From Boothiomyces macroporosus (taxonomy: Eukaryota > Chytridiomycota > Chytridiomycetes > Rhizophydiales > Terramycetaceae), in NCBI GenBank assembly GCA_027604185.1, contig JADGKB010000201.1:1-14428 (forward strand): a DNA stretch of 14,428 bases, read 5' to 3'. Below are positions 278-14,428 of the stretch, in pieces. The first letter of the stretch is position 1. Each line of letters starts with the position of its first letter. The position numbers and the translations under genes were made by a program. The notes beneath the pieces are model-generated. The model saw nothing but the letters and a program-made list of their open reading frames with translations, ran no database searches and was not told where the DNA came from.

Positions 278-441
278 TTGTAGTGTGGAGCTAAGTGGCA
301 GTGATATAGCTGTAGTGTGGAGCCAAGTACCAGTGATAGTATTGTGGTGTGGAGCCAAGTACCAGTGATAGTACAGTGATAGTATTGTGGTGTGGAGCCA
401 AGTACCAGTGATAGTACAGTGATAGTATTGTGGTGTGGGGT
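278..441. repeat. Minisatellite with 32-bp and 43-bp units
   Basis: Unit starts lie at 278, 310, 342, 385 and 428. The core is TTGTGGTGTGGAGCCAAGTA followed by CCAGTGATAGTA. The first two spacings are 32 bp and the next two are 43 bp. The 11-bp difference is an extra copy of CAGTGATAGTA inside the unit. The last unit breaks off after about 11 bp. The first unit is the most diverged (CTAAGTGG in place of CCAAGTAC), so growth seems to have proceeded towards the right. The open frames seen through it on the minus strand are a by-product of the repeat. It lies between the end of the left-edge gene and tRNA-His; the rest of 193-513 is G/T-rich and shows no gene. Confidence 0.9.
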
Positions 442-658: not shown

Positions 659-1622
659 TTTTTTCTTGCTCCTCCGCCAAATCAAATCAAACGCATTCAG
701 TATTGCTCGACTGTAGCACCCTTTTTGTTATAAATCTAGCTTTATTTGCAATTAGGAAAGTAAGTCGTACAGGTTGGAGCGTCTTTTCACTGGTTGAATA
801 CTCTCAATTGCTTGTGTAGAACTTTCAATTGCACAGAGGATAAAACTGCAATGTTTATACATACAAATACGAATTTGTTCTTCTGGTTTCATTTTTAATA
901 CAGAAATTATTCTAACTAACAGTTAGAGTTCACAAAAATTGCCTCGTTTTACGGAGGACCAGTTAGGAAAAAAGTTTGCAATCAGCAAATAAATTCGTTC
1001 AGTCGAAACTTCACTACGAACTTCTAACTCCCGTGCAAAGATGCCTTTCCTCAAATTTCCACCAATTTATACCCCGTTGGGGGGTATCTCGCGTTTTTAT
1101 TGGTTGAAAAAATTCTCCGAGTTGGAGTCAGTTGTGTCATCTTTGATTAAAGTTGTGCATCATAGTTGTAGAACACTAAAGATCATAAATTCATGGTTGA
1201 GTACAGTAATTATCTCAGCTTACTTCTTACTGTGGGTCATCGTCAATCTTTAACCTTGAAATTGACATTACTTGCCGTTTTGATTCCACGCTAATCAGGT
1301 TTTATCTTTGATCTGTCAATTTCAATGTGTTAAGGGGACATAAGTTTTAGCTTTTAATTTCTTGAATGAGTCAAAGGTGAAGATGTGAGCGTTGTGTTGA
1401 TCTTTCTACCATCGATCATCACATACAATCAGGGATAGAAATGATCGTGTTTTGTGTATCCGGTCTAATTAATTGAATGTGAACATACGGCTAAGTTCAT
1501 AAATAACTATTCTTCATTTTTCTACAAAGTCAAATTTAATAAAGATCGATAACTGAAACAATTGGATTTAATATCACGAATCGAGTTGATTAAAATTTAA
1601 CTCCGACTTTACTTTACACATA
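659..1622. other. Long gene-poor stretch
   Basis: Nearly 1 kb between tRNA-Gln and the GH18-like gene with no recognisable gene. It begins with the T6 terminator. It contains a possible small minus-strand ORF (752-892, listed separately), a TATAAA-like sequence read on the minus strand near 1065, and a 70-codon plus-strand ORF at 1041-1253 with no recognisable features beyond a hydrophobic C-terminus. The right part should hold the promoter of the GH18-like gene, but no clear TATA box stands out near its start. Confidence 0.5.
752..892 (-). CDS. Possible small protein, 46 aa, unknown
   Basis: An ATG-started frame (ATG at 892, TAA at 752-754) encodes 46 residues, beginning MKPEEQIRICMYKHC and ending KRRSNLYDLLS. 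It has three cysteines and a balanced composition. An AATAAA follows the stop within about 10 nt on the same strand, and a TATAAA-like box lies about 170 nt upstream of the ATG near 1065. I recognise no family. An open frame this short can arise by chance in AT-rich DNA, so it is recorded as a candidate. It could also be one exon of a gene whose other exons were not found. Confidence 0.25.
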   Translation of the reverse strand: MKPEEQIRICMYKHCSFILCAIESSTQAIESIQPVKRRSNLYDLLS

Positions 1623-2597: not shown

Positions 2598-2603
2598 TTT
2601 ATT
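2598..2603 (-). terminator. Poly(A) signal overlapping the carboxypeptidase stop codon
   Basis: Read on the minus strand, CAATAAAA gives AATAAA that includes the stop TAA of the spliced carboxypeptidase frame. It supports the spliced 3' end over the longer unspliced frame. Confidence 0.45.
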
Positions 2604-4112
2604 GAGAAATAATTGATTTACCTCTAATCCATTTGTTGATAAACTCCAATGAATGTTCAGGCTATCGTTAATACAATTTACTTGATCAGCTGGAACAAAG
2701 TGGGAAGAGTTGTACACTTTCAAAAAAGCAAAGTTTTCAAATTGACGATATACTCCGGCAGGGCGGCCAGTTACACTAGATATCCACTCTGTATCATTTT
2801 GATTATTGAATCCGTCGTGACCATGCCATGGCAAGTTCATGGCCCAGGCTTTATTTCCAATCCAATTACATGTCCAGTCAGCATCACCAGCATATACCAA
2901 TATATCAATTCCGTCTTCTAAAAGTGAAGGTATTCCAGCGACAATTGGCATCATGATATCTCCATTCTTTCTAAAATCAGCCCCAACTTTATCGTTGCAT
3001 CCAACAAAAGTACGATCAACTCCCAACTGCTTTTGAACTTTTGGTGAATTTATCCACTTGGCCATCAATATTTCAGATTCGTCAAATGACTTGTCCCCAG
3101 GAGGTTTTCTTAAATCATAAGGGTTTAATTTAGTCTTGTCAAAATCACTTCCAGTTAGATTCTCACAATATTCTGCAGCAGGCTTACAAGTGTGATGAGT
3201 AGGGAGCAAATAGCATGTCTTTATCAAAGCGGAACATATTGGCCATCCCATGCGCATTTTTTCGATGGCTTCTGGCGATAGAATTGGACCATACGTTGCA
3301 TCCTCCGCCATATCAGCATAGTACTCATATTGAACCAGAGAATCAGTAATGCCGTTTCCAATCGCCAATGATTTCAAGTTGATCAATAGCCCTTCTTCAT
3401 TTCCCATTTCTATTGCGTGTTTATGATCTTGGATTGATTTCGCAATTGCAGGAATGTAGTGCCCAGCATAAGATTCGCCTGTAATGTGGAAGCTTTGAGT
3501 AGAGTATTTTGGGAATGCATCAAAGAACAGTTGTAAAAATGTCTGAACGTTCTCTGCAGCAGAAACTGTAGTGTCCACAATTTGAGTATCAGAATAACTC
3601 AGGCCAACATTCACAGGCTAAATGAATATTTTAATTACCTGGTCTAAAAAGAAAATGTTTGCATTGGAGTTCCAAGAAAAATTGTTGAAATCAGTCCCAG
3701 AACCATCCTTATTGATATTGCAAGGCCCAAGTTCAGTCAAAAGTCCGATGAATGAACTACATCCTGGACCTCCGTTCAACCACATAATAACTGGATCTTC
3801 AGCAGGCTTGTCTCTACTTTCAAAAAACCAAAAATAGTAATGCTTATCATCTGCAGTATCTAAATAGCCGGAATACTGTCTGACAGTTGGGTCGCATAGT
3901 TTTCCGTTAGTCTGCACCCTTAACCCGTACCCAGGATAACTTGAATGCGTAAATTGCGTCCAGGTTGATTCACCCACAAGTGAATTCGATTTTAAAAGGA
4001 GCTCTTTGGTGAACCTGCGAATCCCTGTCCCAAATTCCAACAAACCCTCTTTTGCATCCTGAAAGTTTAACACAGAATTCAATGCCAAAACGCTGGATAT
4101 GAGTAAAAACAT
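2599..4112 (-). CDS. Serine carboxypeptidase, carboxypeptidase Y type (S10), three exons
   Basis: Exons on the minus strand are 4112-3639, 3617-2682 and 2661-2599, giving 490 aa. Residues 1 to about 13 form a signal peptide. S10 landmarks appear in order: WLNGGPGCSS (111-120), DQPVNVGLSYSD across the first splice (157-168), the nucleophile GESYAGH with Ser207, the GDAD aspartate region of VYAGDADWTCNW (399-410), and catalytic His464 in SSHFVPADQ. The yeast-type GGH before the histidine is SSH here. After removal of a second intron the C-terminus reads PEHSLEFINKWIRG, the expected end of carboxypeptidase Y. The unspliced frame instead gives an unrelated 36-residue tail. The product should enter the secretory pathway and act in the vacuole or outside the cell, releasing C-terminal residues from peptides. 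The gene is convergent with the GH18-like gene, and its promoter side faces a tRNA-Gly pair. Confidence 0.93.
2662..2681 (-). other. 20-nt spliceosomal intron (carboxypeptidase intron 2)
   Basis: On the minus strand the segment starts GTAAATTG, has TTAAC at its positions 11-15, and ends GATAG. It interrupts ...VPADQ | PEHSLEFINKWIRG between codons (phase 0). Its length is not a multiple of three, so it must be removed to read the family-typical C-terminus. The boundary is after CAA. Confidence 0.88.
3618..3638 (-). other. 21-nt spliceosomal intron (carboxypeptidase intron 1)
   Basis: On the minus strand it starts GTAATTAAAA and ends CATTTAG, falling after GACCAG (phase 0). Removal joins FFLDQ to PVNVGLSYS, which is the unbroken S10 family block. 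Its length is a multiple of three, but the acceptor TAG is itself an in-frame stop when the intron is retained. It has no TTAAC-type motif near the acceptor; TTCAT or the more distant TTAAA are the only candidates for a branch site. Confidence 0.87.
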
Positions 4113-4131
4113 GAAAAAAATTGCTAGTGAG

Positions 4132-4145
4132 TGAACAATTGTTCA
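4132..4145. repeat. 14-bp perfect palindrome TGAACAATTGTTCA
   Basis: Perfect dyad about 20 bp upstream of the carboxypeptidase start codon and about 140 bp upstream of the Gly tRNA pair. It could bind a dimeric regulator of the peptidase gene or be a chance AT-rich palindrome; nothing else supports a function. Confidence 0.3.
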
Positions 4146-4286
4146 ACTCGCTGCTTCTTCACTGAAAATAGAAGGAGTCTGGTCAGTATTCATCTTTGGA
4201 ACTGATACATGGAGTGCTTTGGCTTTACACTTGGGAATCTAATTGCTATTTTAATAATATAATGCACCCAGGAAGTTCAGGAACAA

Positions 4287-4356
4287 GCGCCAGTGGTTTA
4301 GTGGTAAAATTCGTCGTTGCCATCGACGAGCCCCCGGTTCAATTCCGGGCTGGCGC
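4287..4356 (+). tRNA. tRNA-Gly(GCC), pair copy 1
   Basis: Acceptor GCGCCAG pairs with CTGGCGC. Anticodon stem CGTCG/CGACG holds TTGCCAT with GCC at 4319-4321. T stem CCCGG/CCGGG encloses TTCAATT. The discriminator is A4357. Only A4358 then separates it from the next tRNA, and there is no terminator between them. Confidence 0.96.
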
Positions 4357-4358
4357 AA

Positions 4359-4428
4359 GCAACAGTAGTGTAGAGGTAACATGCTCGCCTTCCAAGCGTG
4401 CGCCCCGGGTTCGATTCCCGGCTGTTGC
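4359..4428 (+). tRNA. tRNA-Gly(TCC), pair copy 1
   Basis: Acceptor GCAACAG pairs with CTGTTGC. The anticodon loop CTTCCAA carries TCC at 4391-4393. T stem CCGGG/CCCGG encloses TTCGATT. The anticodon stem CTCGC/GCGTG has one T-T mismatch, at the second pair, which is shared by all three copies in the window. A T5 run at 4430-4434 is the likely terminator for both tRNAs of the pair. Confidence 0.94.
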
Positions 4429-4558
4429 ATTTTTGTTACTTTTTAGACTCATTTATTTTTGGGCTAAAATGATTTTTCTAATAGTTTGTGGTTGTTGCTT
4501 GCCTGTCTCTTGTAGGGAATTTAAAGGCGCTTTTCGACTTTATTTTTTTTGAAAACTA

Positions 4559-6283
4559 ATGAAAAATATTATTTGGTTACCAGCTTATGTCCCTCAGCAG
4601 GAGCCTCTAGAGAGATTAGATGAAGAGTTGGAGTCGTTAATAATGTATATTACACCCACAGCAATGGAGGAAGAAATCAGAAGAAAAGTAATACAGAAAT
4701 ACCAAACAGTTATCAACGAGAGATTTCCCAATTACCAAGTGGCAGTATTTGGCAGCTGTTGTAACTCACTATACCTTCCAAATAGTGATATTGATTTGGT
4801 GATTATCAATACAGAGGAAGAAGAGGGAATCCCTGCACAACGAATGTCTTCAGTATTGTCAAAAATTACCCGCAAATTGCATCCCCATACTAGTTACTTA
4901 TTCCTAGTAAAGAAAGCCAAAATTCCAATCATCAAGATTATTGACTACAGTTCAAATATTGCCATTGATATTTCCTATAATTCAGCAGAAAATACAACAA
5001 AAGTTGCTGAATTTGTTGCAGAAAAATTGATGGAATATTCGGATATTAAATGGATGGTATTATTCCTCAAACAGTACTTGGCCAATAGAGAGCTGAATAA
5101 TAACGCAAATGGCGGGTTGGGTGGATTCGCAGCTTTTCTACTTGTACTTTCATTCCTTGAATTATATCCCATGCTATATAAAGATACAAAATTGGATTTC
5201 TACACCAAGCCAAACTCGAAAGCAAAGCTCCTGATTGATTTTTTTCATTTCTATGGAAGGATACTGGATATCAATAGCGTTGGGTTAGCACCAACAGGAA
5301 TGGAAGGAGATAGATCTGTGATTATGATTGACAAGGAATACTATTACAATAATATCGAACCTTATGAAACTAAACAAGCAAATTTAGGCTATTCGAGACC
5401 AAAAATGTTGTTATTGGATCCAACGAATCAAGCAAACAATACTGCTAAAGGATGTAGCTTAATAGAAACTATATTTTCTGAATTCAACAAATCTTACGAC
5501 AGGTTGTTGACAATAGCTGGCAACGACAGTATGCAGTTTGAGGATGGAACATACATTGGCTTTTTGTCTAATGATATTATTGCAATTAGCTCAGAAGAAG
5601 TCGAAAAAAGAAAGCAGTTCAAACAATATGGTTCCAGGCTAGGGTTGAGTCAATGGGATGGTAATTTACATTTACAAGACGATTTCTGGTCAGATGCAAC
5701 TGGTACCAAGCACAAGTTGGTGAACAAGCCAATTTTAACTGAATTCAAGAAACGTGTCTCTGATTCTGATTACTACAACAAGAACAAGATGCAAAAATCT
5801 ACTCCGTTTTCAAAGTTTCCCAATGTTAAGCAGTCTCCCCCGAAACATTTGAAGAAAAATCCTCAGCAAAAAGCAGCTCCAAACCAAAAGAATGTTTGGA
5901 CCAATCCCAAGTCAAATAATTCAGCAAAAGCCCAATCAACTGCTAAACAATTCACTCATCCAAATTTCAAACCTGCCCAGAATAATAGACAATCGACTAA
6001 CTCACCAAATCAGAGACCGTTGCATGCACTAACCCAAAAACAATCTAATAATGGAAATGCAAAGTCTCAAAAGGACTCTCCCGGCAAAAAGAATTCAAAC
6101 GCCAAAAGACAGGGACAGTTGTTTGCTTTAAAACACCAAAAGGGAAATAGCAATGTAGCGAACAAGCAACCCAAAAATAAAGGTAAGTTTAATTCACCAC
6201 ACAAACAAGGCAATGCAAGGCAGAGCACTCCAAACTTGCACAGGGTGCATACTCCAATGAAAGTCGCAAAGAATAAAAGCTAA
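4559..6283 (+). CDS. Non-canonical poly(A) polymerase, Trf4/Cid14 (TENT4) type
   Basis: 574 aa. The N-terminal segment WLPAY...LDEELESLIMYITPT matches the region ahead of the Trf4 catalytic domain. The nucleotidyltransferase signature is VFGSCCNSLYLPNSDIDLV (63-81) with G65-S66 and the metal-binding D77-x-D79. The third acidic residue is D137 in NIAIDISY. The central domain shows GGLGGFAAFLLVLSFL (185-200). The nucleotide-recognition motif is LLDPTNQANN (285-294). From about 390 to the end is a Lys/Asn/Gln/Ser/Pro-rich, probably disordered basic tail suited to RNA binding. In yeasts this enzyme adds short A-tails to nuclear RNAs in the TRAMP complex for exosome decay. Oddities: CC follows the GS dipeptide, and an in-frame GTAAGT..AAG segment of 27 nt at 6183-6209 could be an optional intron. 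The gene starts 130 bp after the Gly tRNA pair. Confidence 0.92.
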   Translation: MKNIIWLPAYVPQQEPLERLDEELESLIMYITPTAMEEEIRRKVIQKYQTVINERFPNYQVAVFGSCCNSLYLPNSDIDLVIINTEEEEGIPAQRMSSVLSKITRKLHPHTSYLFLVKKAKIPIIKIIDYSSNIAIDISYNSAENTTKVAEFVAEKLMEYSDIKWMVLFLKQYLANRELNNNANGGLGGFAAFLLVLSFLELYPMLYKDTKLDFYTKPNSKAKLLIDFFHFYGRILDINSVGLAPTGMEGDRSVIMIDKEYYYNNIEPYETKQANLGYSRPKMLLLDPTNQANNTAKGCSLIETIFSEFNKSYDRLLTIAGNDSMQFEDGTYIGFLSNDIIAISSEEVEKRKQFKQYGSRLGLSQWDGNLHLQDDFWSDATGTKHKLVNKPILTEFKKRVSDSDYYNKNKMQKSTPFSKFPNVKQSPPKHLKKNPQQKAAPNQKNVWTNPKSNNSAKAQSTAKQFTHPNFKPAQNNRQSTNSPNQRPLHALTQKQSNNGNAKSQKDSPGKKNSNAKRQGQLFALKHQKGNSNVANKQPKNKGKFNSPHKQGNARQSTPNLHRVHTPMKVAKNKS

Positions 6284-6594
6284 TGAATACTTGATATTTT
6301 GTTTCTCTGATCCTCAATAGCCTATTCAAAAGTCCAGTCGTCAAAAATGTAAATTTGAACAGTGAAATATCAAAAGTGGTGGAAATTGCACGCGATAATC
6401 TCCAAATGTTACTCTGTGAGATTGGAGAGAATTGGTACAAATATTGAACTGTTTTGGTAATATTTACTTTTTTAAAGGCATCTATATCGTGCTATCTGGT
6501 ATAAAGAATGATGTTTATAGGACGTTGTCAGAGTGAAATGCTGGAATGAATATACTACAGATTTCATTTACCTACCTAAAATTGCAATCACGTG
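6284..6594 (+). other. Spacer with an orphan open frame
   Basis: 311 bp between the poly(A) polymerase stop and tRNA-Thr. A 50-codon open frame (6295-6447, stop TGA at 6445) lacks an early ATG. Its later part reads like protein (EISKVVEIARDNLQMLLCE). It is in a different frame from the polymerase. It may be chance, a remnant, or a terminal exon reached from a donor not identified here. Nothing else stands out in the remainder. Confidence 0.3.
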
Positions 6595-6666
6595 GCCCTT
6601 TTAGCTCAGTGGTAGTAGCGCTTGCCTAGTAAGCAAGAGGTCCTCTGTTCGATCCAGGGAAAGGGC
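6595..6666 (+). tRNA. tRNA-Thr(AGT)
   Basis: Acceptor GCCCTTT pairs with AAAGGGC. Anticodon stem CTTGC/GCAAG holds CTAGTAA with AGT at 6628-6630. T arm CTCTG/CAGGG encloses TTCGATC. The D stem GCTC..AGC has the usual unpaired fourth position. The discriminator is A6667, followed by a T7 terminator run at 6668-6674. No intron. Confidence 0.95.
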
Positions 6667-6759
6667 ATTTTTTTGCCTTTTAACATTAAAATTTCAGATA
6701 GTTTCTATTTTTTGAATGGTTGATAAAGCTAAACTTTACATAAACTATATTCAAATCTA

Positions 6760-7998
6760 TTAATCTTCAAGATATTCTGAACTAGCTGCATAGGAATCAG
6801 TCCTACTATTGAGTGTAAGAGGGCGAATGCTTTGAACGCTTCTGCTATCCCTGATTGAACTACCTTGAGATGTATTAAAGTAAGCGGAAAACGTGAAGCT
6901 TTTGTATCCACTTGAATTGCTTGTACTTTCAGTTCCACTATATCGCTGCCCAACTTGATTAATATCAACATAAGCGGGAAAAGGCAATGGCGCACTCAAA
7001 GTAGACATTGTGCCCAAGCTACCTCTGGAACTATCAATCATTTCGCTAAGATGAACAGATCCTGCGTATCCATATCTATGATTCGGTTTAACTGCTGCAT
7101 CATCTGGGACTTTGAAATCATCTGATAAAAGATTAAAATCCATACTCGATAATGGTGGAAGTAAATCTTTTGGTTCAGTATTGCCAAAAATATCAACATT
7201 TTCTTCTTGCACATCAAATATTGAGTATTTCCGATGGAGTTGGTTCCTGGCATAATAGGATGCTCCAACTACAACAACCAAAGCACCAGCTGTTATTCCC
7301 ACTATTAGTGCTGGATGTATGCTAGTAGAATTCGCAGATGGGTTGTTTGGAGGAGTTGCTGATGTTCCCCCAGATGGATTAGTAGGAGTGTTTGAACTAT
7401 TCGGTTGGGAAATTCCATTATTGTTTTGATTTGTAGCTCCTTCAATAGACTGTTGAGCATTCGTGCTCCCAGTATTATCGGATTTAACAATTACAATGGG
7501 ATTAGCCGCGGTGTTTCCTGAATTGCTTAGGACAGTGCCAATACCAGCAGTTTGTGATGATTGAGATTCAGATACAGTCACTGAAGGGTTTACATCAGGA
7601 GGGACTGCAGGGGCATTGATTGATATTCCATTAGTACTGCTTTGTGAACTGTTACTCGTATCAGTTGCGTCAACTCCTGATGTAGATGGATCGTTTGCTC
7701 CAGGAGATCCTGGACCATCAGTCCCAGGAGAAGGTGGACCGTCAGTACCAGGAGAAGGTGGACTACCAGATTTTGGCGCTTTCTTTCCAGCTTTCCCTTT
7801 CGGCGCAGGCCCTTTCTTTTTACCTTTTCCTTTCGGTGAGGGAGGACCATCTGGACCAGGATCTTGTCTTTTGTACGCAAAATGCGTTGGATGCACAGCT
7901 TTTGTGTTTATTCGCAAACCAGCTCTTTTCTTCATCTTGGAGTTCTTGGCAATAGTAGAGGAAACCAATATAAAAGCCAGTATTTGAATAAACTTCAT
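6760..7998 (-). CDS. Mucin-like single-pass membrane protein, cysteine-free
   Basis: 412 aa. A signal peptide (MKFIQILAFILVSSTIA, 1-17) is followed by a basic pro-segment with dibasic sites KKR at 23-25 and KR at 43-44, suited to Kex2-type cleavage. Residues 45-105 are Pro/Gly/Lys-rich with SPGTDGPP repeats. Residues 106-228 are Ser/Thr/Asn/Pro-rich with many N- and O-glycosylation candidates. One transmembrane helix (ALIVGITAGALVVVVGASYY, 230-249) is followed by Arg/Lys. The cytosolic tail of about 160 residues is rich in Ser, Thr and Tyr. No cysteine occurs anywhere, so WSC or other disulfide-stabilised modules are absent. The layout matches fungal wall-stress sensors or mucin-like adhesins (Mid2/Msb2-like in plan, not in sequence). 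No family is recognised. The gene is single-exon and its 3' end faces tRNA-Thr. Confidence 0.82.
   Translation of the reverse strand: MKFIQILAFILVSSTIAKNSKMKKRAGLRINTKAVHPTHFAYKRQDPGPDGPPSPKGKGKKKGPAPKGKAGKKAPKSGSPPSPGTDGPPSPGTDGPGSPGANDPSTSGVDATDTSNSSQSSTNGISINAPAVPPDVNPSVTVSESQSSQTAGIGTVLSNSGNTAANPIVIVKSDNTGSTNAQQSIEGATNQNNNGISQPNSSNTPTNPSGGTSATPPNNPSANSTSIHPALIVGITAGALVVVVGASYYARNQLHRKYSIFDVQEENVDIFGNTEPKDLLPPLSSMDFNLLSDDFKVPDDAAVKPNHRYGYAGSVHLSEMIDSSRGSLGTMSTLSAPLPFPAYVDINQVGQRYSGTESTSNSSGYKSFTFSAYFNTSQGSSIRDSRSVQSIRPLTLNSRTDSYAASSEYLED
7680..7760 (-). repeat. Short in-frame repeats coding SPGTDGPP units
   Basis: CCAGGAGAAGGTGGACC-type units of about 24 bp recur (for example near 7723 and 7747, with a shorter diverged copy near 7700). 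They encode the Ser-Pro-Gly-Thr-Asp-Gly-Pro repeats of the extracellular stalk of the mucin-like protein. Because the units are multiples of three, the number can vary without breaking the frame. Confidence 0.6.
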
Positions 7999-8386
7999 AT
8001 TAGGTATGGACTATCCATTCGACCGTCGTTTTATTTGCATTAGGCTGTGAGCATGCATGTCAACGTTGGCTCAGATCCCAAACCAGTGGCGTTTATGACA
8101 AAAGATTGATAGTGTAGGATAAACTTGATCAAATTTCACGAATATGAAGCTGATTAACGACATTAATTAAGCTGTGCACCCTGAAGGTGTTCGCCGGCTT
8201 TATCCAACGCGATTTAGTGCACTTGTGCGGTACAGTTAAAACTCGCAAAAGTGGAGCCAACTTTTCTCAAGGCCAAAGATTTGCCTAAATCAAGGTACAC
8301 AGATTTAAGTAATTTGTTCAATGAGGCTTGCAATGAACAATACTAGCCAAGTTTCAACAATTTTATTCTGGTCATTTATAGCGAAT
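7999..8386. other. Spacer upstream of the mucin-like gene
   Basis: 388 bp between the start of the mucin-like gene and the end of the LRR gene, both on the minus strand. It should carry the promoter of the former and the 3' UTR of the latter, including AATAAA (minus strand, 8362-8367) 20 nt past the LRR stop. No further gene or convincing motif was seen. Confidence 0.5.
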
Positions 8387-9868
8387 CTAGTCCAAATTTA
8401 GCTCATGGTGATAAGCGATGCACTGATCAATTAATTTCTGCTGGTCAAAAGGAGATAGAGTTAATCTACCCATCATGTCTTCAAGTGAATTATCACTGAT
8501 TTTGCCTTTAACTGACACTGCCAATTTACCTAACGACCTTCGATCAAGCAGAGCGTAGATTAGGTATTTTTGCTGATGATTCGAAATCATTGCAGCGTTG
8601 CAAAGGTAATGGAGGATCTGCTCCTTTATCTCAAAGGGAAGCTGGAGCAATAGAAGGGCTCTTGCATCATACAATAATTCCTGGGCTAAATTTGCTTGAT
8701 ACTTGATGTTCCTATTAATAAGAGAAGTAATTTGAGGATCTTTGGCTAATGTGTCTATCTTTCGGTAACCAGGATGACTGTTAAAGCTTGTGAGCGTGTA
8801 ATTTGACCTCAAAGCATCGATAACAGTTTGTCTATATGCTAATCCACACCCGTTGAATGTGAAATTCTTTAATCCGCTGCTACTAGATAGTAATTTTTTG
8901 ATTTGATCCTTGAAGATTTGAGATCCATGCACTGAAATGGATGTAATATCAAGTTCACTCAAAAAAGGATTGCTAATGATTACATTGACCAAGAATGCGA
9001 ACCCTTCTCTTGTAAATGTACCTCCGTATAAATCAATTGAATTAAAGCTCTTTTTGTACCGCAAGGCTTTCGTAAATCGTTTAAGCGTTTCATAGTCCCA
9101 CCGAATACAGGTGAATCCAAAATGTTCAATTCGACTATCACTTTCAAAAAAATCTATAAACTGAGCAATGCCTTGCTTGCCCAAAGTTTGTTCATCGAAT
9201 CTTAATCGCTTCAATTTCTTGTTATTTCTAACAGCCTTGAATATTTTTTGAATCGAATTAGAAAGATGTCCGTCAAACAAGCTTAATGCCATTATGGTTT
9301 GATTGCGTTCTAGCAGACTGACTATGGCATCAGCATGGCTATCGTTTAGTCCACAATTTTCAATGTATAACCGGTCCAAGTGTGGATTGGTTTCTAGGCC
9401 TTTAAATAGCCTTTCTAGCCAATCGCCACTTATTCTGCAATCGTAAATCTTTAACAATTTAGGATGAAAGTTTTCCCATCTCATTTCATTGAAAAAACGT
9501 GTGGAACCTTCATCCATAATATCGCCTAGGTCTAATTGGACAATAGAACTTTTAGATGAAAGCAATTCTACGCAGTGAGGAACTATTTCAGAATCAATTC
9601 CTGTTATTTTCAAATAATTGATTTGTGAATTCGATTTTAAAATAGAATTCGCAAATCGCATTGCGCTTTTACTGGTACCATTAGAGATAATCATATCAGA
9701 GTGTTTTTTCAATTCAGCGCCATCTACGTAAAATTTCAATAGCAAATCCTGTGGTTTCTTGTATTTCTTTGATGCCACCGCCAGAAATTCTTCCATTTCG
9801 TTGAAAAATGATACAAAATCATCACAGATATTGGAGTAATTTTCACTTGACAATCTGAAAATGTTCAT
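8387..9868 (-). CDS. Leucine-rich-repeat (RNI-like) protein with C-terminal F-box-like stretch
   Basis: 493 aa, single exon, ATG at 9868. From about residue 80 to 365 there are irregular repeats of the RNase-inhibitor type, for example INYLKITG, IVQLDLGDI, LDRLYIENCGLNDSHADAIVSLLERN, LKRLRFDEQTLGKQGIAQFIDFF, LSELDITSISVHG and LKNFTFNGCGLAY. Each is a beta-strand segment followed by a helix of about the right length. Near the C-terminus, LLLLQLPFEIKEQILHYLC (405-423) resembles the start of an F-box (LPxEIxxxIL). If real, it would point to an SCF ubiquitin-ligase substrate adaptor, but an F-box is usually N-terminal. The N-terminal 70 residues are unassigned. Such RNI-like proteins form large, fast-evolving sets in some fungi. 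The substrate or partner cannot be inferred. Confidence 0.8.
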   Translation of the reverse strand: MNIFRLSSENYSNICDDFVSFFNEMEEFLAVASKKYKKPQDLLLKFYVDGAELKKHSDMIISNGTSKSAMRFANSILKSNSQINYLKITGIDSEIVPHCVELLSSKSSIVQLDLGDIMDEGSTRFFNEMRWENFHPKLLKIYDCRISGDWLERLFKGLETNPHLDRLYIENCGLNDSHADAIVSLLERNQTIMALSLFDGHLSNSIQKIFKAVRNNKKLKRLRFDEQTLGKQGIAQFIDFFESDSRIEHFGFTCIRWDYETLKRFTKALRYKKSFNSIDLYGGTFTREGFAFLVNVIISNPFLSELDITSISVHGSQIFKDQIKKLLSSSSGLKNFTFNGCGLAYRQTVIDALRSNYTLTSFNSHPGYRKIDTLAKDPQITSLINRNIKYQANLAQELLYDARALLLLQLPFEIKEQILHYLCNAAMISNHQQKYLIYALLDRRSLGKLAVSVKGKISDNSLEDMMGRLTLSPFDQQKLIDQCIAYHHELNLD

Positions 9869-9995
9869 TTCTAAGTGATTAAATTTTGAAGGACGTCATT
9901 CTGATTACGCGCAGTGATAAGCAATCTAGATTGAAATTGGAATCGCCATACCAACAAAAAATCATCTATAAATGACGCTCTAAAGAAACAAAAAT

Positions 9996-10065
9996 GCAAC
10001 AGCCGGGAATCGAACCCGGGGCGCACGCTTGGAAGGCGAGCATGTTACCTCTACACTACTGTTGC
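9996..10065 (-). tRNA. tRNA-Gly(TCC), pair copy 2
   Basis: Identical in sequence to the copy at 4359-4428; anticodon TCC is read on the minus strand at 10033-10031. It includes the same T-T mismatch in the anticodon stem. On the minus strand it is followed by A and then a T5 run (terminator). Confidence 0.94.
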
Positions 10066-10068
10066 TTT

Positions 10069-10138
10069 GCGCCAGCCCGGAATTGAACCGGGGGCTCGTC
10101 GATGGCAACGACGAATTTTACCACTAAACCACTGGCGC
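10069..10138 (-). tRNA. tRNA-Gly(GCC), pair copy 2
   Basis: Identical to the copy at 4287-4356; anticodon GCC at 10106-10104 on the minus strand. The spacer to the downstream tRNA-Gly(TCC) is AAA, one base longer than in the other two pairs. The upstream flank CCGAAACGA matches that of copy 3 except for one base. Confidence 0.96.
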
Positions 10139-10563
10139 TCGTTTCGGAAATTTTGGTGTGCACTCTGACCTGAATTTTTGTATTTCATTGAAATTGAAAT
10201 CAGATAGAACCCAATAGATACTTTTCATTGGAATTGGTTTGCAATACACTTCTTGTTAGTCACTGAACAGATTAGGTTAGAATTAGGGGATAAAGTTTGA
10301 ATATGGTATTAGGTTAGAAATCGAAATTGGTATTAGAAAAGATTAGAATAGAGTCAGAAATATAAAATCGGGTTCTAGTTAGATTATAGAACATTAGGAA
10401 AAGTCACTTCAGATCCGTCTTCCTCTAATACGAATACAATGACGACTATCCGTAAAACACCAAGCTTAATTTCAATTGTATGTCATTATAGGCCGCATAT
10501 TTAGTAGAGACTGCTTATTCATATCCCAGAATTTTTACATTCTTTTTTTACTTTTTCAAAAAA
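10139..10563. other. Spacer with degenerate ATTAGGTTAGAA repeats
   Basis: 425 bp between tRNA pair copy 2 and mL53 with no gene seen. ATTAGGTTAGAA occurs exactly at 10271-10282 and 10308-10319, with shorter ATTAGAA and TTAGG variants up to about 10400. This looks like a decayed simple repeat. The last 60 bp before the mL53 ATG are pyrimidine-rich and end in A7, which fits a fungal start region. Confidence 0.5.
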
Positions 10564-10883
10564 ATGTCCATGTTGAAATTCATAAAGTCTGTAAAACTTG
10601 GGTTCAGTCCTACAGCAATCAACGGCAAATCAACTAGGACCCTCTTAACTAGACTTAAAACGGACAAGAATGTAGCCGCTTCCAAATGTGAATTTGATAT
10701 TAAAACAAAAGACAGTATTTCAGAGCCTTTTGTTCATATTGAATTTGGTAATTATTATTTAATTTAGTCGACAAGAAGGAAATGAAATTCAATCCAGCTA
10801 ATTTAAAGGTTGACGAAATGGTAATGGATATCACCAGGTATTCAAAGAGACTTCAACTCCAGGAAGAAATTAATCAACAATAA
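10564..10883 (+). CDS. Mitochondrial large-subunit ribosomal protein mL53 (yeast MRPL44 type), two exons
   Basis: Exons 10564-10747 and 10768-10883 give 99 aa, close to the length of the yeast protein. The N-terminal part, KFIKSVKLGFSPTAINGKSTRTLL, fits the KFNPFG..AKVAR..L pattern of this family. The splice joins VHIEF to VDKKEMKFNPANLKVDEM, matching the DKKEM..DPSN block near the middle of the family. Without splicing the frame ends after 67 residues. The protein is part of the mitochondrial large ribosomal subunit. It has no obvious long presequence, but a basic N-terminus. Its stop codon is inside an AATAAA (10879-10884), and only 5 bp separate it from the stop of the convergent PPT2 gene. 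The ATG follows a T-rich tract and A7, a good fungal context. Confidence 0.88.
10748..10767 (+). other. 20-nt spliceosomal intron (mL53)
   Basis: It starts GTAATTATTA, has TTTAAT at positions 11-16 and ends TTTAG. Phase 1: G of exon 1 plus TC of exon 2 makes the Val codon before DKKEM. Only 2 of its 20 bases are G or C. If retained, the acceptor TAG is read in frame as a stop. Confidence 0.88.
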
Positions 10884-10884
10884 A
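10879..10884 (+). terminator. Poly(A) signal overlapping the mL53 stop codon
   Basis: CAATAAAA at the end of the mL53 frame contains AATAAA that includes the stop TAA. The mRNA 3' end should then lie inside the last exon of the opposing PPT2 gene. Confidence 0.45.
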
Positions 10885-10888
10885 ATAA

Positions 10889-11277
10889 TTAATGTGGTTT
10901 ATATACTAGTACGAAAGCGGAAAGTAATTCCTCCTCGTGCGATACTGTGCAGTGTACTTTGAACTCTTTCAAATTAATTCCATTGATTTCACCGTCAAGT
11001 TGAATCTCTGGCTTTCCGTTATTTTTTATCACTGTGACCTTCAATTAACTCATCTTACCTGATGCCAATTCAGTTTGATTGGGTACATTGCTTTGTACAT
11101 GGATTCTTTTAACGCAAACCTCAACCCAACGTACCTAATTTGATTGGATTTTAAACTTTGATATTCGATCAGCTCTGATGGAGATAAAATCTTGTTTGGA
11201 AATCTTGGGTTTCTCTTTAGTACCGTTTCTATTCTTTTTAAATTCAACAAGTCATTTCCTATTCCAATAATTTTCAT
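10889..11277 (-). CDS. Holo-[acyl-carrier-protein] synthase, 4'-phosphopantetheinyl transferase (AcpS/PPT2 type), two exons
   Basis: Exons on the minus strand are 11277-11059 and 11038-10889, giving 122 aa, the usual AcpS size. Motifs: GIGNDLLNLKRIE (5-17) with metal-binding D9, the FPNKILSPSEL stretch (26-36), and LRFALKESMYKAM (52-64) with K57-E58, the second metal and catalytic region. The W71 block LNWHQ | VTVIKNNGKPEIQL continues across the intron. The C-terminal VHCTVSHEEELLSAFVLV matches the family's SxSHE...A.A.v strand. The enzyme transfers the phosphopantetheine arm of CoA to acyl carrier protein; in fungi the small AcpS-type enzyme (Ppt2) serves mitochondrial ACP. No targeting presequence is visible upstream of GIGND, so either a short internal signal is used or a 5' exon is missed. 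The usual Thr of GIGTD is Asn. The gene is convergent with mL53. Confidence 0.88.
11039..11058 (-). other. 20-nt spliceosomal intron (PPT2)
   Basis: On the minus strand it starts GTAAGATGAG, has TTAAT at positions 11-15 and ends TGAAG. It follows CATCAG (phase 0). Removal restores NWHQVTVIKNNGKPEIQL. If retained, the third codon TGA ends translation. Confidence 0.87.
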
Positions 11278-11512
11278 GAAAAATCAAGGAAAATCTGAGG
11301 GTGATCTGGTGCAATAATCATTGAATACTAGGTCATATTTATCTTGAAATTGATTTGGTTTATCCTTGACTGAATATAAATGTAGTCATCCACTATTTTA
11401 TTTGTCAACTCTAATACTTTATAAATACTGTGCTCATTGACGAAAATGGTTTTATTCTCAATCTAGATCTTCACTCTGAATTTCAAAGTATACAACAAAA
11501 AATAACAAAAAT

Positions 11513-11582
11513 GCAACAGCCGGGAATCGAACCCGGGGCGCACGCTTGGAAGGCGAGCATGTTACCTCTACACTACTGTTGC
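11513..11582 (-). tRNA. tRNA-Gly(TCC), pair copy 3
   Basis: Identical to the copies at 4359 and 9996; anticodon TCC at 11550-11548 on the minus strand. It is followed on that strand by A and a T5 terminator run. Confidence 0.94.
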
Positions 11583-11584
11583 TT

Positions 11585-11654
11585 GCGCCAGCCCGGAATT
11601 GAACCGGGGGCTCGTCGATGGCAACGACGAATTTTACCACTAAACCACTGGCGC
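11585..11654 (-). tRNA. tRNA-Gly(GCC), pair copy 3
   Basis: Identical to the copies at 4287 and 10069; anticodon GCC at 11622-11620 on the minus strand. It is 2 nt (AA) from the downstream tRNA-Gly(TCC). The upstream flank CCGAAACAA is shared with copy 2 apart from one base, so these two pairs are probably the more recent duplicates. Confidence 0.96.
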
Positions 11655-14293: not shown

Positions 14294-14428
14294 CTACTTT
14301 CGAGGATGGCGGTCATCTTCTAGATATTTTGGTTGATCTCCACAAGAGTAATCTTCTAGATATTTTGGTTGATCTCCACAAGAGTAATCTTCTAGATATT
14401 TTGGTTGATCTCCACAAGAGTAATCTTC
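14294..14428 (-). CDS. Possible 3' end of a repeat protein (YSCGDQPKYLED units), partial
   Basis: Read on the minus strand, the 36-bp repeat encodes three perfect copies of YSCGDQPKYLED, followed by DRHPRK and a TAG at 14294-14296. The frame is open to the window edge (44 residues). Codon choices (GGA, CAA, CCA, AAA, GAA, GAT) suit the AT-rich genes nearby. One cysteine per unit and no KR site argue against a Kex2-processed peptide precursor. The plus strand is also open through the array (LLDILVDLHKSN units), but no ATG starts that frame. The coding strand is therefore a preference, not a proof. Confidence 0.4.
   Translation of the reverse strand, partial: EDYSCGDQPKYLEDYSCGDQPKYLEDYSCGDQPKYLEDDRHPRK
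14315..14428. repeat. 36-bp tandem repeat at the window edge, 3.2 perfect copies
   Basis: Units start at 14315, 14351 and 14387, and a fourth begins at 14423 and is cut by the edge. The copies are identical base for base over the visible part. The unit length is a multiple of three. If the window ends where a contig ends, the array may be a true minisatellite at which assembly stopped, or an assembly artefact. Confidence 0.95.

Follow-up and report, generated by a model that had tools for sequence, protein, structure and literature searches.

Four segments of 20–21 nt in the S10 carboxypeptidase, mL53 and AcpS-like genes of the window (the whole 14,428-nt stretch of DNA that was analysed) are very probably U2-type spliceosomal introns, as predicted from their sequence and from their match to a class of 18–24-nt GT...AG segments called by a gene finder in this likely chytrid genome. 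An earlier note had proposed introns of 20, 21, 20 and 20 nt at these positions, and direct reading of the sequence confirmed all coordinates, with a GTAA start and an AG end in each of the four (Table 1). The fungus-like character of the genome, likewise proposed, agrees with the closest database proteins, which come from the chytrids Boothiomyces and Terramyces.

Table 1. Positions of the predicted introns, their exons and the U4 snRNA gene in the window.
Feature	Position	Strand	Length	Sequence	Branch motif or basis
U4 snRNA gene	910..1042	-			Rfam RF00015, 58.0 bits against a cut-off of 46
S10 carboxypeptidase exon 3	2599..2661	-		PEHSLEFINKWIRGKSIISQ, then stop	
S10 carboxypeptidase intron 2	2662..2681	-	20 nt	GTAAATTGTATTAACGATAG	TTAAC
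S10 carboxypeptidase exon 2	2682..3617	-			carboxypeptidase Y alignment
S10 carboxypeptidase intron 1	3618..3638	-	21 nt	GTAATTAAAATATTCATTTAG	weak branch motif
S10 carboxypeptidase exon 1	3639..4112	-			carboxypeptidase Y alignment
mL53 exon 1	10564..10747	+			alignment to mL53 chains
mL53 intron	10748..10767	+	20 nt	GTAATTATTATTTAATTTAG	TTAAT
mL53 exon 2	10768..10883	+			alignment to mL53 chains
AcpS-like exon 2	10889..11038	-			sequence reading and holo-ACP synthase alignment
AcpS-like gene intron	11039..11058	-	20 nt	GTAAGATGAGTTAATTGAAG	TTAAT
AcpS-like exon 1	11059..11277	-			holo-ACP synthase alignment

Predicted splice junctions in the window and in other genes

As had been claimed, removal of the segments restores three conserved proteins. 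The spliced S10 junctions FLDQ/PVNVG and PADQ/PEHS are ungapped against carboxypeptidase Y, and among the 120 best S10 homologues the junction of intron 1 is ungapped in all and that of intron 2 in 119. Intron 2 shares its position and phase with two S10 paralogues and intron 1 with one; these paralogous introns sit in the same codon and phase, differ in sequence and are nearly equal in length (21/20/20 and 21/21). The mL53 junction EF/VDKKEM is ungapped against YmL44/mL53 chains of solved mitoribosomes among the matches listed, and the AcpS junction NWHQ/VTV is ungapped over seven residues on either side against the best holo-ACP synthase chain; the alignments behind these two junctions are weak, with the mL53 family match comprising eight sequences at E values from 1e-7 to 0.03. 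The AcpS-like gene is missing from the listed calls of the gene finder (score of at least 5).

In MCM6, five junctions are ungapped in 115 of 118, 115 of 119, 113 of 120, 118 of 120 and 120 of 120 homologues, and a sixth, situated in a variable stretch, in 49 of 114; one MCM6 intron was overlooked by the caller. In beta-tubulin, homology backs four of the five called junctions. At least one call, that of the first beta-tubulin junction, was wrong; the alignment at this point fits an intron of 39 nt better, so that the class is not strictly confined to 18–24 nt. It is nevertheless very unlikely that the segments belong to ordinary longer fungal introns with misplaced 20-nt boundaries, since these boundaries align ungapped in S10, MCM6 and beta-tubulin. 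Such a reading could draw on the possible 39-nt intron at the start of beta-tubulin, on two intron pairs that adjoin directly or lie 1 base apart, and on a 113-nt form of the 2662–2681 intron (2662–2774) preferred by the flat-prior gene finder; this form was overruled by homology, because it would delete a conserved part of S10 for which carboxypeptidase Y provides an alignment.

Two MCM6 models and one S10 model deposited for Boothiomyces continue through most of these junctions. Gene-prediction pipelines thus seem to have met such introns already, though the literature searched holds no discussion of them; the matches listed by word searches of open-licence PubMed Central include none that describes introns of this kind from a fungus. 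Deposited proteins also bear on whether the segments arose as insertions during assembly or sequencing, or are signs of decayed genes, a possibility that the earlier note would have seen borne out by relatives showing them to be insertions. The proteins deposited for Boothiomyces JEL0866 and JEL0838 instead read over most of the junctions, and random insertions would lack a common GT...YTRAY...AG layout, a length peak at 19–22 nt and common positions in paralogues. We therefore regard this explanation as extremely improbable, even for an assembly of 216 contigs in which a 3,288-bp stretch is identical on two contigs.

An 18-nt in-frame segment called in the poly(A) polymerase gene (5661–5678) is not claimed as an intron; no stop interrupts the frame within it, and at this place a motif look-up in the relative P0001 gave no matching residues.

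A class of predicted short introns in the genome

The class was sampled in 200 kb of a contig other than that of the window, in a genome of 15.2 Mb. Using a flat-prior gene finder, with a length prior of 12–120 nt and decoy motifs as background, 134 of 205 introns fell at 19–24 nt and none at 12–18 nt, whereas three decoy motifs placed 8 of 140, 8 of 72 and 6 of 128 calls at 18–24 nt. A second class of longer introns, sought at 25–120 nt in the same sample, gave no excess over decoys: calls of at least 25 nt came to 71 for the real motif, against 128, 63 and 120 for the three decoys, a background level that further argues against misplaced boundaries of longer introns. A short-intron model called 218 introns in 119 gene models, 69 of which carry 18–24-nt GT...AG segments, compared with 22, 8, 5, 8, 8 and 13 calls for six decoys, and it recovered 133 kb of coding sequence against 85–89 kb with decoys. 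When coding frames joined across GT-AG segments were counted with no branch model at all, 21, 45, 22 and 20 such joins were seen at 19, 20, 21 and 22 nt, a total of 108 where the neighbouring lengths would predict 36.0, with a Poisson p of 3e-22 that is only nominal because candidate joins overlap. Beyond the training contig, 33 of 61 introns lay at 19–24 nt and 3 at 12–18 nt, while the decoys put 2 of 36 calls and 4 of 53 calls in the 19–24-nt range.

The sharp peak at 19–22 nt that the earlier note had proposed looking for in the genome-wide length distribution is thus present in the 200 kb sampled, and the range is narrow and within about 25 nt, with the beta-tubulin intron as a possible exception. 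Length peak, decoy motif runs and paralogue positions all lie beyond chance, in keeping with the statement that chance indels are very unlikely.

The called introns share one layout: they open with GTA(A), mostly preceded by AG, and contain a YTRAY branch motif that only a short tail separates from the closing AG. In 183 of the 218 called introns the branch A precedes the final G by 5–6 nt, in 195 it occupies intron position 14–16, and TTAAT, CTAAT, TTAAC and CTAAC together provide 130 of the 218 branch motifs; as the motif model was trained on the sampled contig itself, the branch motif may seem more uniform than it is. The last exon base is G in 55% of called introns, while only 22% of them have G at donor position +5 despite a canonical U1. 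In longer members the extra bases are split between the spacer from 5' site to branch and the tail, with slightly more in the spacer. All four window introns have GT-AG ends and a 5' site predicted to pair with U1, and carry a branch motif of the YTRAY type complementary to GUAGUA of U2, weak in one of the four: the 3618–3638 intron scores 1.5 (ATTCAT) and the other three 4.1–5.0.

Splicing machinery

Major snRNA genes were found for U1 (68.8 bits, slightly under the cut-off of 69.5; 5' end ACUUACCUG), U2 (two genes with GUGUAGUAUCUG), U4 and U6, and the recognition sequences of U1, U2 and U6 are canonical, so altered snRNA recognition was rejected as a cause of the short introns. The U4 gene, located in the window, contains an Sm-like AAUUUUUG, and its 5' end complements U6 of the same genome; its single-strand fold gave no signal over shuffles (z -0.84), and its identity rests on the Rfam match. 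U5 was not found in the genome by Rfam model or sequence pattern, which does not imply its absence. Among five protein families sought, matches were obtained for Prp8 PROCN, SF1-HH, the U2AF large subunit (230.7 bits, spread over exon pieces of a single locus, where the cut-off for the whole protein is 310.3) and CWC25. RED is required for short introns in human cells; the fifth family, RED_N, gave no match, and its control was silent as well. Cwc25 keeps its N-terminal glycine plug MGGGDLNLKKSWHP (MGGGDLN), and a loss of the Stentor type was accordingly rejected. Of the components that the earlier note had suggested comparing, U2, Prp8 and SF1 were found and are conventional, not visibly altered, while U5 was not found.

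These findings also bear on other routes of removal, namely elimination at the DNA level or bypass by the ribosome. Short non-coding inserts with such fates exist elsewhere, as the eliminated sequences of ciliates and the bypass elements of mitochondria. The segments, however, have spliceosomal signals (GT...AG ends, YTRAY, AG/GT exon context), the genome holds U1, U2, U4 and U6 genes together with splicing protein matches, and 49 of 59 called segments of 3n length contain an in-frame stop, a figure biased by detection. We consider either route exceedingly unlikely.

Proposed mechanism and comparison with known systems

The evidence favours the earlier proposal of true introns of about 20 nt that would be removed by the spliceosome of a fungus-like genome. 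Most likely, they are U2-type introns near minimum size, whose lariat loop is predicted to measure 14–15 nt and whose spliceosome has a conventional Cwc25 plug. U1 would pair with AAG/GUAA at the 5' site, and the YTRAY element would be bound by SF1 and then by U2. Branching would yield a lariat loop of about 14–15 nt and a tail of 5–6 nt. An intron of about 20 nt would be too short to hold a polypyrimidine tract and probably also too short to accommodate U1 and U2 simultaneously in their usual geometry, so that the 5' site would have to be passed on early. The floor of about 19 nt may represent the least spacing tolerated by an otherwise conventional spliceosome. In human spliceosomes the branch site reportedly has to lie about 50 nt from the 5' splice site (PMC6692369), compared with a predicted distance of about 14–15 nt here.

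Introns of such size were said to be known from some ciliates and from nucleomorphs, which the literature bears out for Stentor (PMC9505925) and chlorarachniophyte nucleomorphs (quoted in PMC10245619), with mikrocytids as a further case (PMC10245619). Those of Stentor coeruleus resemble the present introns in GT-AG ends, narrow lengths, AU-richness and a post-branch tail of about 5 nt, and both genomes have canonical U1 and U2 recognition sequences; they differ in length (15–16 nt against 18–24 nt), branch point (position 10–11 against mostly 14–16), last exon base (reportedly not typically G against G in 55%) and Cwc25 glycine plug (reported lost against kept) (PMC9505925). Mikrocytid introns of 16–17 nt are likewise uniform, tiny and conserved in sequence, but they number 224, distributed over 179 genes, and belong to a reduced parasite in which 17–19 spliceosomal proteins were identified (PMC10245619), whereas here 218 were called in 119 gene models from only 200 kb of a 15.2-Mb genome that has matches to SF1, the U2AF large subunit and Cwc25. 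Chlorarachniophyte nucleomorph introns (18–21 nt) are nearest in length, their host being an endosymbiont relic nucleus rather than a fungal nucleus (PMC10245619). Usual fungal introns, with a mean of 63 bp in C. neoformans (PMC8476143) and 55–333 nt in Blastocladiella (PMC2773782), share U2-type signals and a fungal spliceosome and are about threefold longer or more, in line with the expectation of a several-fold difference.

We lean, with limited confidence, towards the view that Terramycetaceae, perhaps together with Globomycetaceae, independently cut the standard intron to about 20 nt while their spliceosome stayed conventional and unreduced and the Cwc25 plug remained intact. If this lineage-wide shrinkage is true, minimal intron size would not follow from a reduced spliceosome, nor would it require changes of the Stentor type, and U1 and U2 could not share one intron as in the textbook pre-spliceosome. 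Gene predictors that accept only introns of at least 30 nt would be expected to break or truncate many genes of this genome; 69 of the 119 sample models have such short introns. Several-fold shorter than the fungal norm, such introns would be a test case for the lower size limit of introns. The comparable cases described, which come from ciliates, nucleomorphs and a group of rhizarian parasites, are far from the structural models, and a fungus combining tiny introns with a conventional-looking spliceosome would make the determinant of minimal length testable by standard cryo-EM and genetics.

Conserved proteins restored at predicted short introns

Direct reading of the window bore out the positions, lengths and GTAA...AG ends that the earlier note had given for all four short segments, and its claim that their removal restores conserved protein was likewise upheld, the S10 carboxypeptidase, mL53 and AcpS junctions all aligning ungapped. 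The S10 junctions FLDQ/PVNVG and PADQ/PEHS showed no gap against carboxypeptidase Y, and the 16 residues around each were ungapped in 120/120 and 119/120 of the best 120 of 3,849 homologues; the mL53 and AcpS junctions were ungapped against solved relatives, at lower significance than S10. The sole gapped S10 homologue among the best 120, P0129 of Globomyces sp. JEL0801, stops at the second junction with ...LDQVNY; judged from the protein alone, its model likely continued into a GTNAAYTAY... intron that went unrecognised at that position. A 490-residue S10 model from Boothiomyces sp. JEL0866 (Terramycetaceae, Rhizophydiales, Chytridiomycota), seen as protein only, reads through both junctions. 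Among the matches listed, the S10 protein shares 91% identity with JEL0866 and 69% with Terramyces, and the poly(A) polymerase-like protein of the window shares 83% with Terramyces sp. JEL0728. Judged by such best-matching proteins, which belong to Boothiomyces and Terramyces, the genus is likely Boothiomyces.

Six called MCM6 junctions were compared with the best 120 of 6,210 homologues. Five were ungapped in 115/118, 115/119, 113/120, 118/120 and 120/120 of the homologues covering them, and the first, in a variable stretch, in 49/114. Our MCM6 model carried a 7-residue insert, KLGFIVG, absent from 119 of the 120 homologues and missing from both deposited Boothiomyces models; the DNA of this insert is a 21-nt intron overlooked by the caller, which if retained would add seven residues and leave the frame unbroken. 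The JEL0838 model is identical across five of the six called junctions and drops 30 residues at the remaining one, and its 95% identity to ours (among the matches listed) falls short mostly through this stretch and our insert. The JEL0866 model begins just past the third junction and spans the other three.

For beta-tubulin, four of five called junctions fit, the last lying in the acidic tail. The first was wrongly called: a 39-nt GT...AG segment, apparently splitting the start codon (A/TG), fits instead, so at least one intron may exceed the main class in length.

Two intron positions are common to the S10 paralogues, in the same codon and phase, with dissimilar sequences and lengths of 21, 20, 20 and 21, 21 nt, the pattern to be expected of ancient introns whose length is constrained. 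At one further locus (L006), two 20-nt introns lie one G apart, and removing both while keeping the G restored the S10 motif GGPGCTS, making a one-nucleotide exon possible.

Coordinates of the features discussed
Feature	Location	Strand	Remarks
S10 segments	window 2662-2681; 3618-3638	-	
mL53 segment	window 10748-10767	+	
AcpS-like segment	window 11039-11058	-	
U4 snRNA gene	window 910-1042	-	RF00015, 58 bits; same window as short introns
tRNA-Gly pair	window 4287-4429	+	
tRNA-Gly pair	window 9995-10138	-	
tRNA-Gly pair	window 11512-11654	-	
Tandem repeat	window about 290-440		near left edge; GTGTGGAGCCAAGTACCAGTGATAGT-like units; by eye
Tandem repeat	window 14316-14428		right edge; ~36-nt unit; by eye
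MCM6 missed intron	C13 80833-80854		0-based, half-open; GTAAGTTGGGTTTTATTGTAG, 21 nt, no in-frame stop
Beta-tubulin 5' end	C13 about 186120-186160		39-nt segment
Adjoining introns	C13 18852-18897		0-based start; L010
Intron pair	L006 890-931	-	0-based

A length class beyond the window

The sample comprised 200 kb of contig C13, about 1.3% of the 15.2-Mb genome in 216 contigs, and a genome-wide class is an extrapolation from it and from loci on other contigs. We counted GT-AG pairs joining two 90-nt coding windows where unspliced reading would break, using no gene model or branch motif and scoring coding potential with hexamer statistics trained on 66 long open frames. Joins at 19, 20, 21 and 22 nt numbered 21, 45, 22 and 20, with no second peak up to 120 nt in these 200 kb; GTAA-AG joins numbered 7, 12, 15 and 4, other tabulated lengths giving 0-4. 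The 108 joins at 19-22 nt compare with 36.0 expected from neighbouring lengths, overlapping candidates making the p-value nominal.

On the same sequence, Viterbi gene finding under a flat length prior of 12-120 nt (genes scoring >20) returned 205 introns, 134 at 19-24 nt, none at 12-18 and 71 at 25-119. Three decoy motifs derived from its matrices produced 140, 72 and 128 introns, of which 8, 8 and 6 fell at 18-24 nt and 128, 63 and 120 at 25 nt or more, so the 71 longer calls do not rise above background. Loci outside C13, the S10 gene of the window included, yielded 61 unique introns (33 at 19-24 nt, 3 at 12-18, 25 at 25-120), and two decoys there placed 2/36 and 4/53 at 19-24 nt. Limited to 18-25 nt, the model called 218 introns on C13, with 69 of 119 gene models intron-bearing, and recovered 133 kb of coding sequence; six decoys yielded 22, 8, 5, 8, 8 and 13 introns, and decoy coding sequence came to 85-89 kb. 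The intron length distribution, to which the earlier note had looked for support, thus peaks at 19-22 nt on these 200 kb, above neighbouring lengths and decoys.

Anatomy of the called introns

The 218 calls measured 18 (1), 19 (32), 20 (95), 21 (55), 22 (20), 23 (12) and 24 nt (3), with 30% G+C versus 39% for C13. Exons end in A-G (55% each) and introns begin GTA, with A at +3 in 89% and at +4 in 60%. At donor position +5, G accounts for just 22% and T for 42%; the predominance of T or A despite a canonical U1 amounts to a loosening there. The branch A lies 5-6 nt before the last G in 183/218 and at intron position 14-16 in 195/218, most commonly within TTAAT (51), CTAAT (39), TTAAC (21) or CTAAC (19). 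This motif uniformity is partly circular, because the motif model was trained on C13 itself; the model-free 19-22-nt peak is free of that circularity. At one C13 site, two complete introns of 23 and 22 nt were called adjoining, with no exon between, and may represent either a single 45-nt intron or a twin. Within the window, a tRNA-Gly gene pair (GCC and TCC anticodons) occurs in three copies within 7.4 kb.

Splicing machinery

Genes for U2 (two copies), U1 (68.8 bits, just under the cut-off of 69.5), U6 and U4 were found, with canonical recognition sequences in U1 (ACUUACCUG), U2 (GUGUAGUAUCUG) and U6 (ACAGAGAAGAUUAGC). By inspection, CUUUGCACGGG of U4 can base-pair with CCCUGUGCAAGG in the U6 gene, leaving a single bulge and using one G-U pair. 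U5 gave no match by snRNA model or sequence pattern, from which nothing firm follows. Prp8, SF1 and Cwc25 were matched as proteins, and the U2AF large subunit in exon pieces scoring below the whole-protein cut-off; RED_N gave no match, and its control search was silent too. Introns of 19-24 nt are predicted within the Prp8, SF1 and U2AF gene models and in the Cwc25 gene as well. Contigs C49 and C100 share, at 100% identity, a 3,288-bp stretch that includes the Cwc25 gene, reflecting either recent duplication or uncollapsed assembly.

Proposed mechanism and known short introns

Layout, length limits, restored proteins, snRNA genes and protein matches are shown by sequence analysis. Splicing would very probably be U2-type, U1 binding AAG/GUAA and SF1 and U2 taking the YTRAY branch motif, with a tight lariat of predicted loop about 14-15 nt formed without a polypyrimidine tract. 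In human systems, a minimum of ~50 nt from 5' site to branch is described for efficient assembly (PMC6692369), whereas ~14 nt is predicted here. At that spacing U1 and U2 on one intron simultaneously, in the usual geometry, looks impossible, so the 5' site may be handed over early, which is our guess. In Stentor, the Cwc25 glycine plug is reported as lost, a proposed steric relief for a 10-nt lariat (PMC9505925); here, in contrast, it is intact (MGGGDLN), so its loss would be unneeded at the predicted loop.

Introns of such size are already known as a class, with 15-16 nt given for Stentor, 16-17 nt for mikrocytids and 18-21 nt for chlorarachniophyte nucleomorphs (PMC9505925, PMC10245619). For fungi, the discussion of a survey of 644 genomes names mean lengths of 63 to 469 bp, and its ancestral-state table has two Chytridiomycota (PMC8476143). 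Word searches of open-licence PubMed Central listed no paper on fungal introns of 20 nt. Within the literature searched, an intron of about 20 nt as the prevailing kind in a fungus whose spliceosome looks conventional seems to be new in print.
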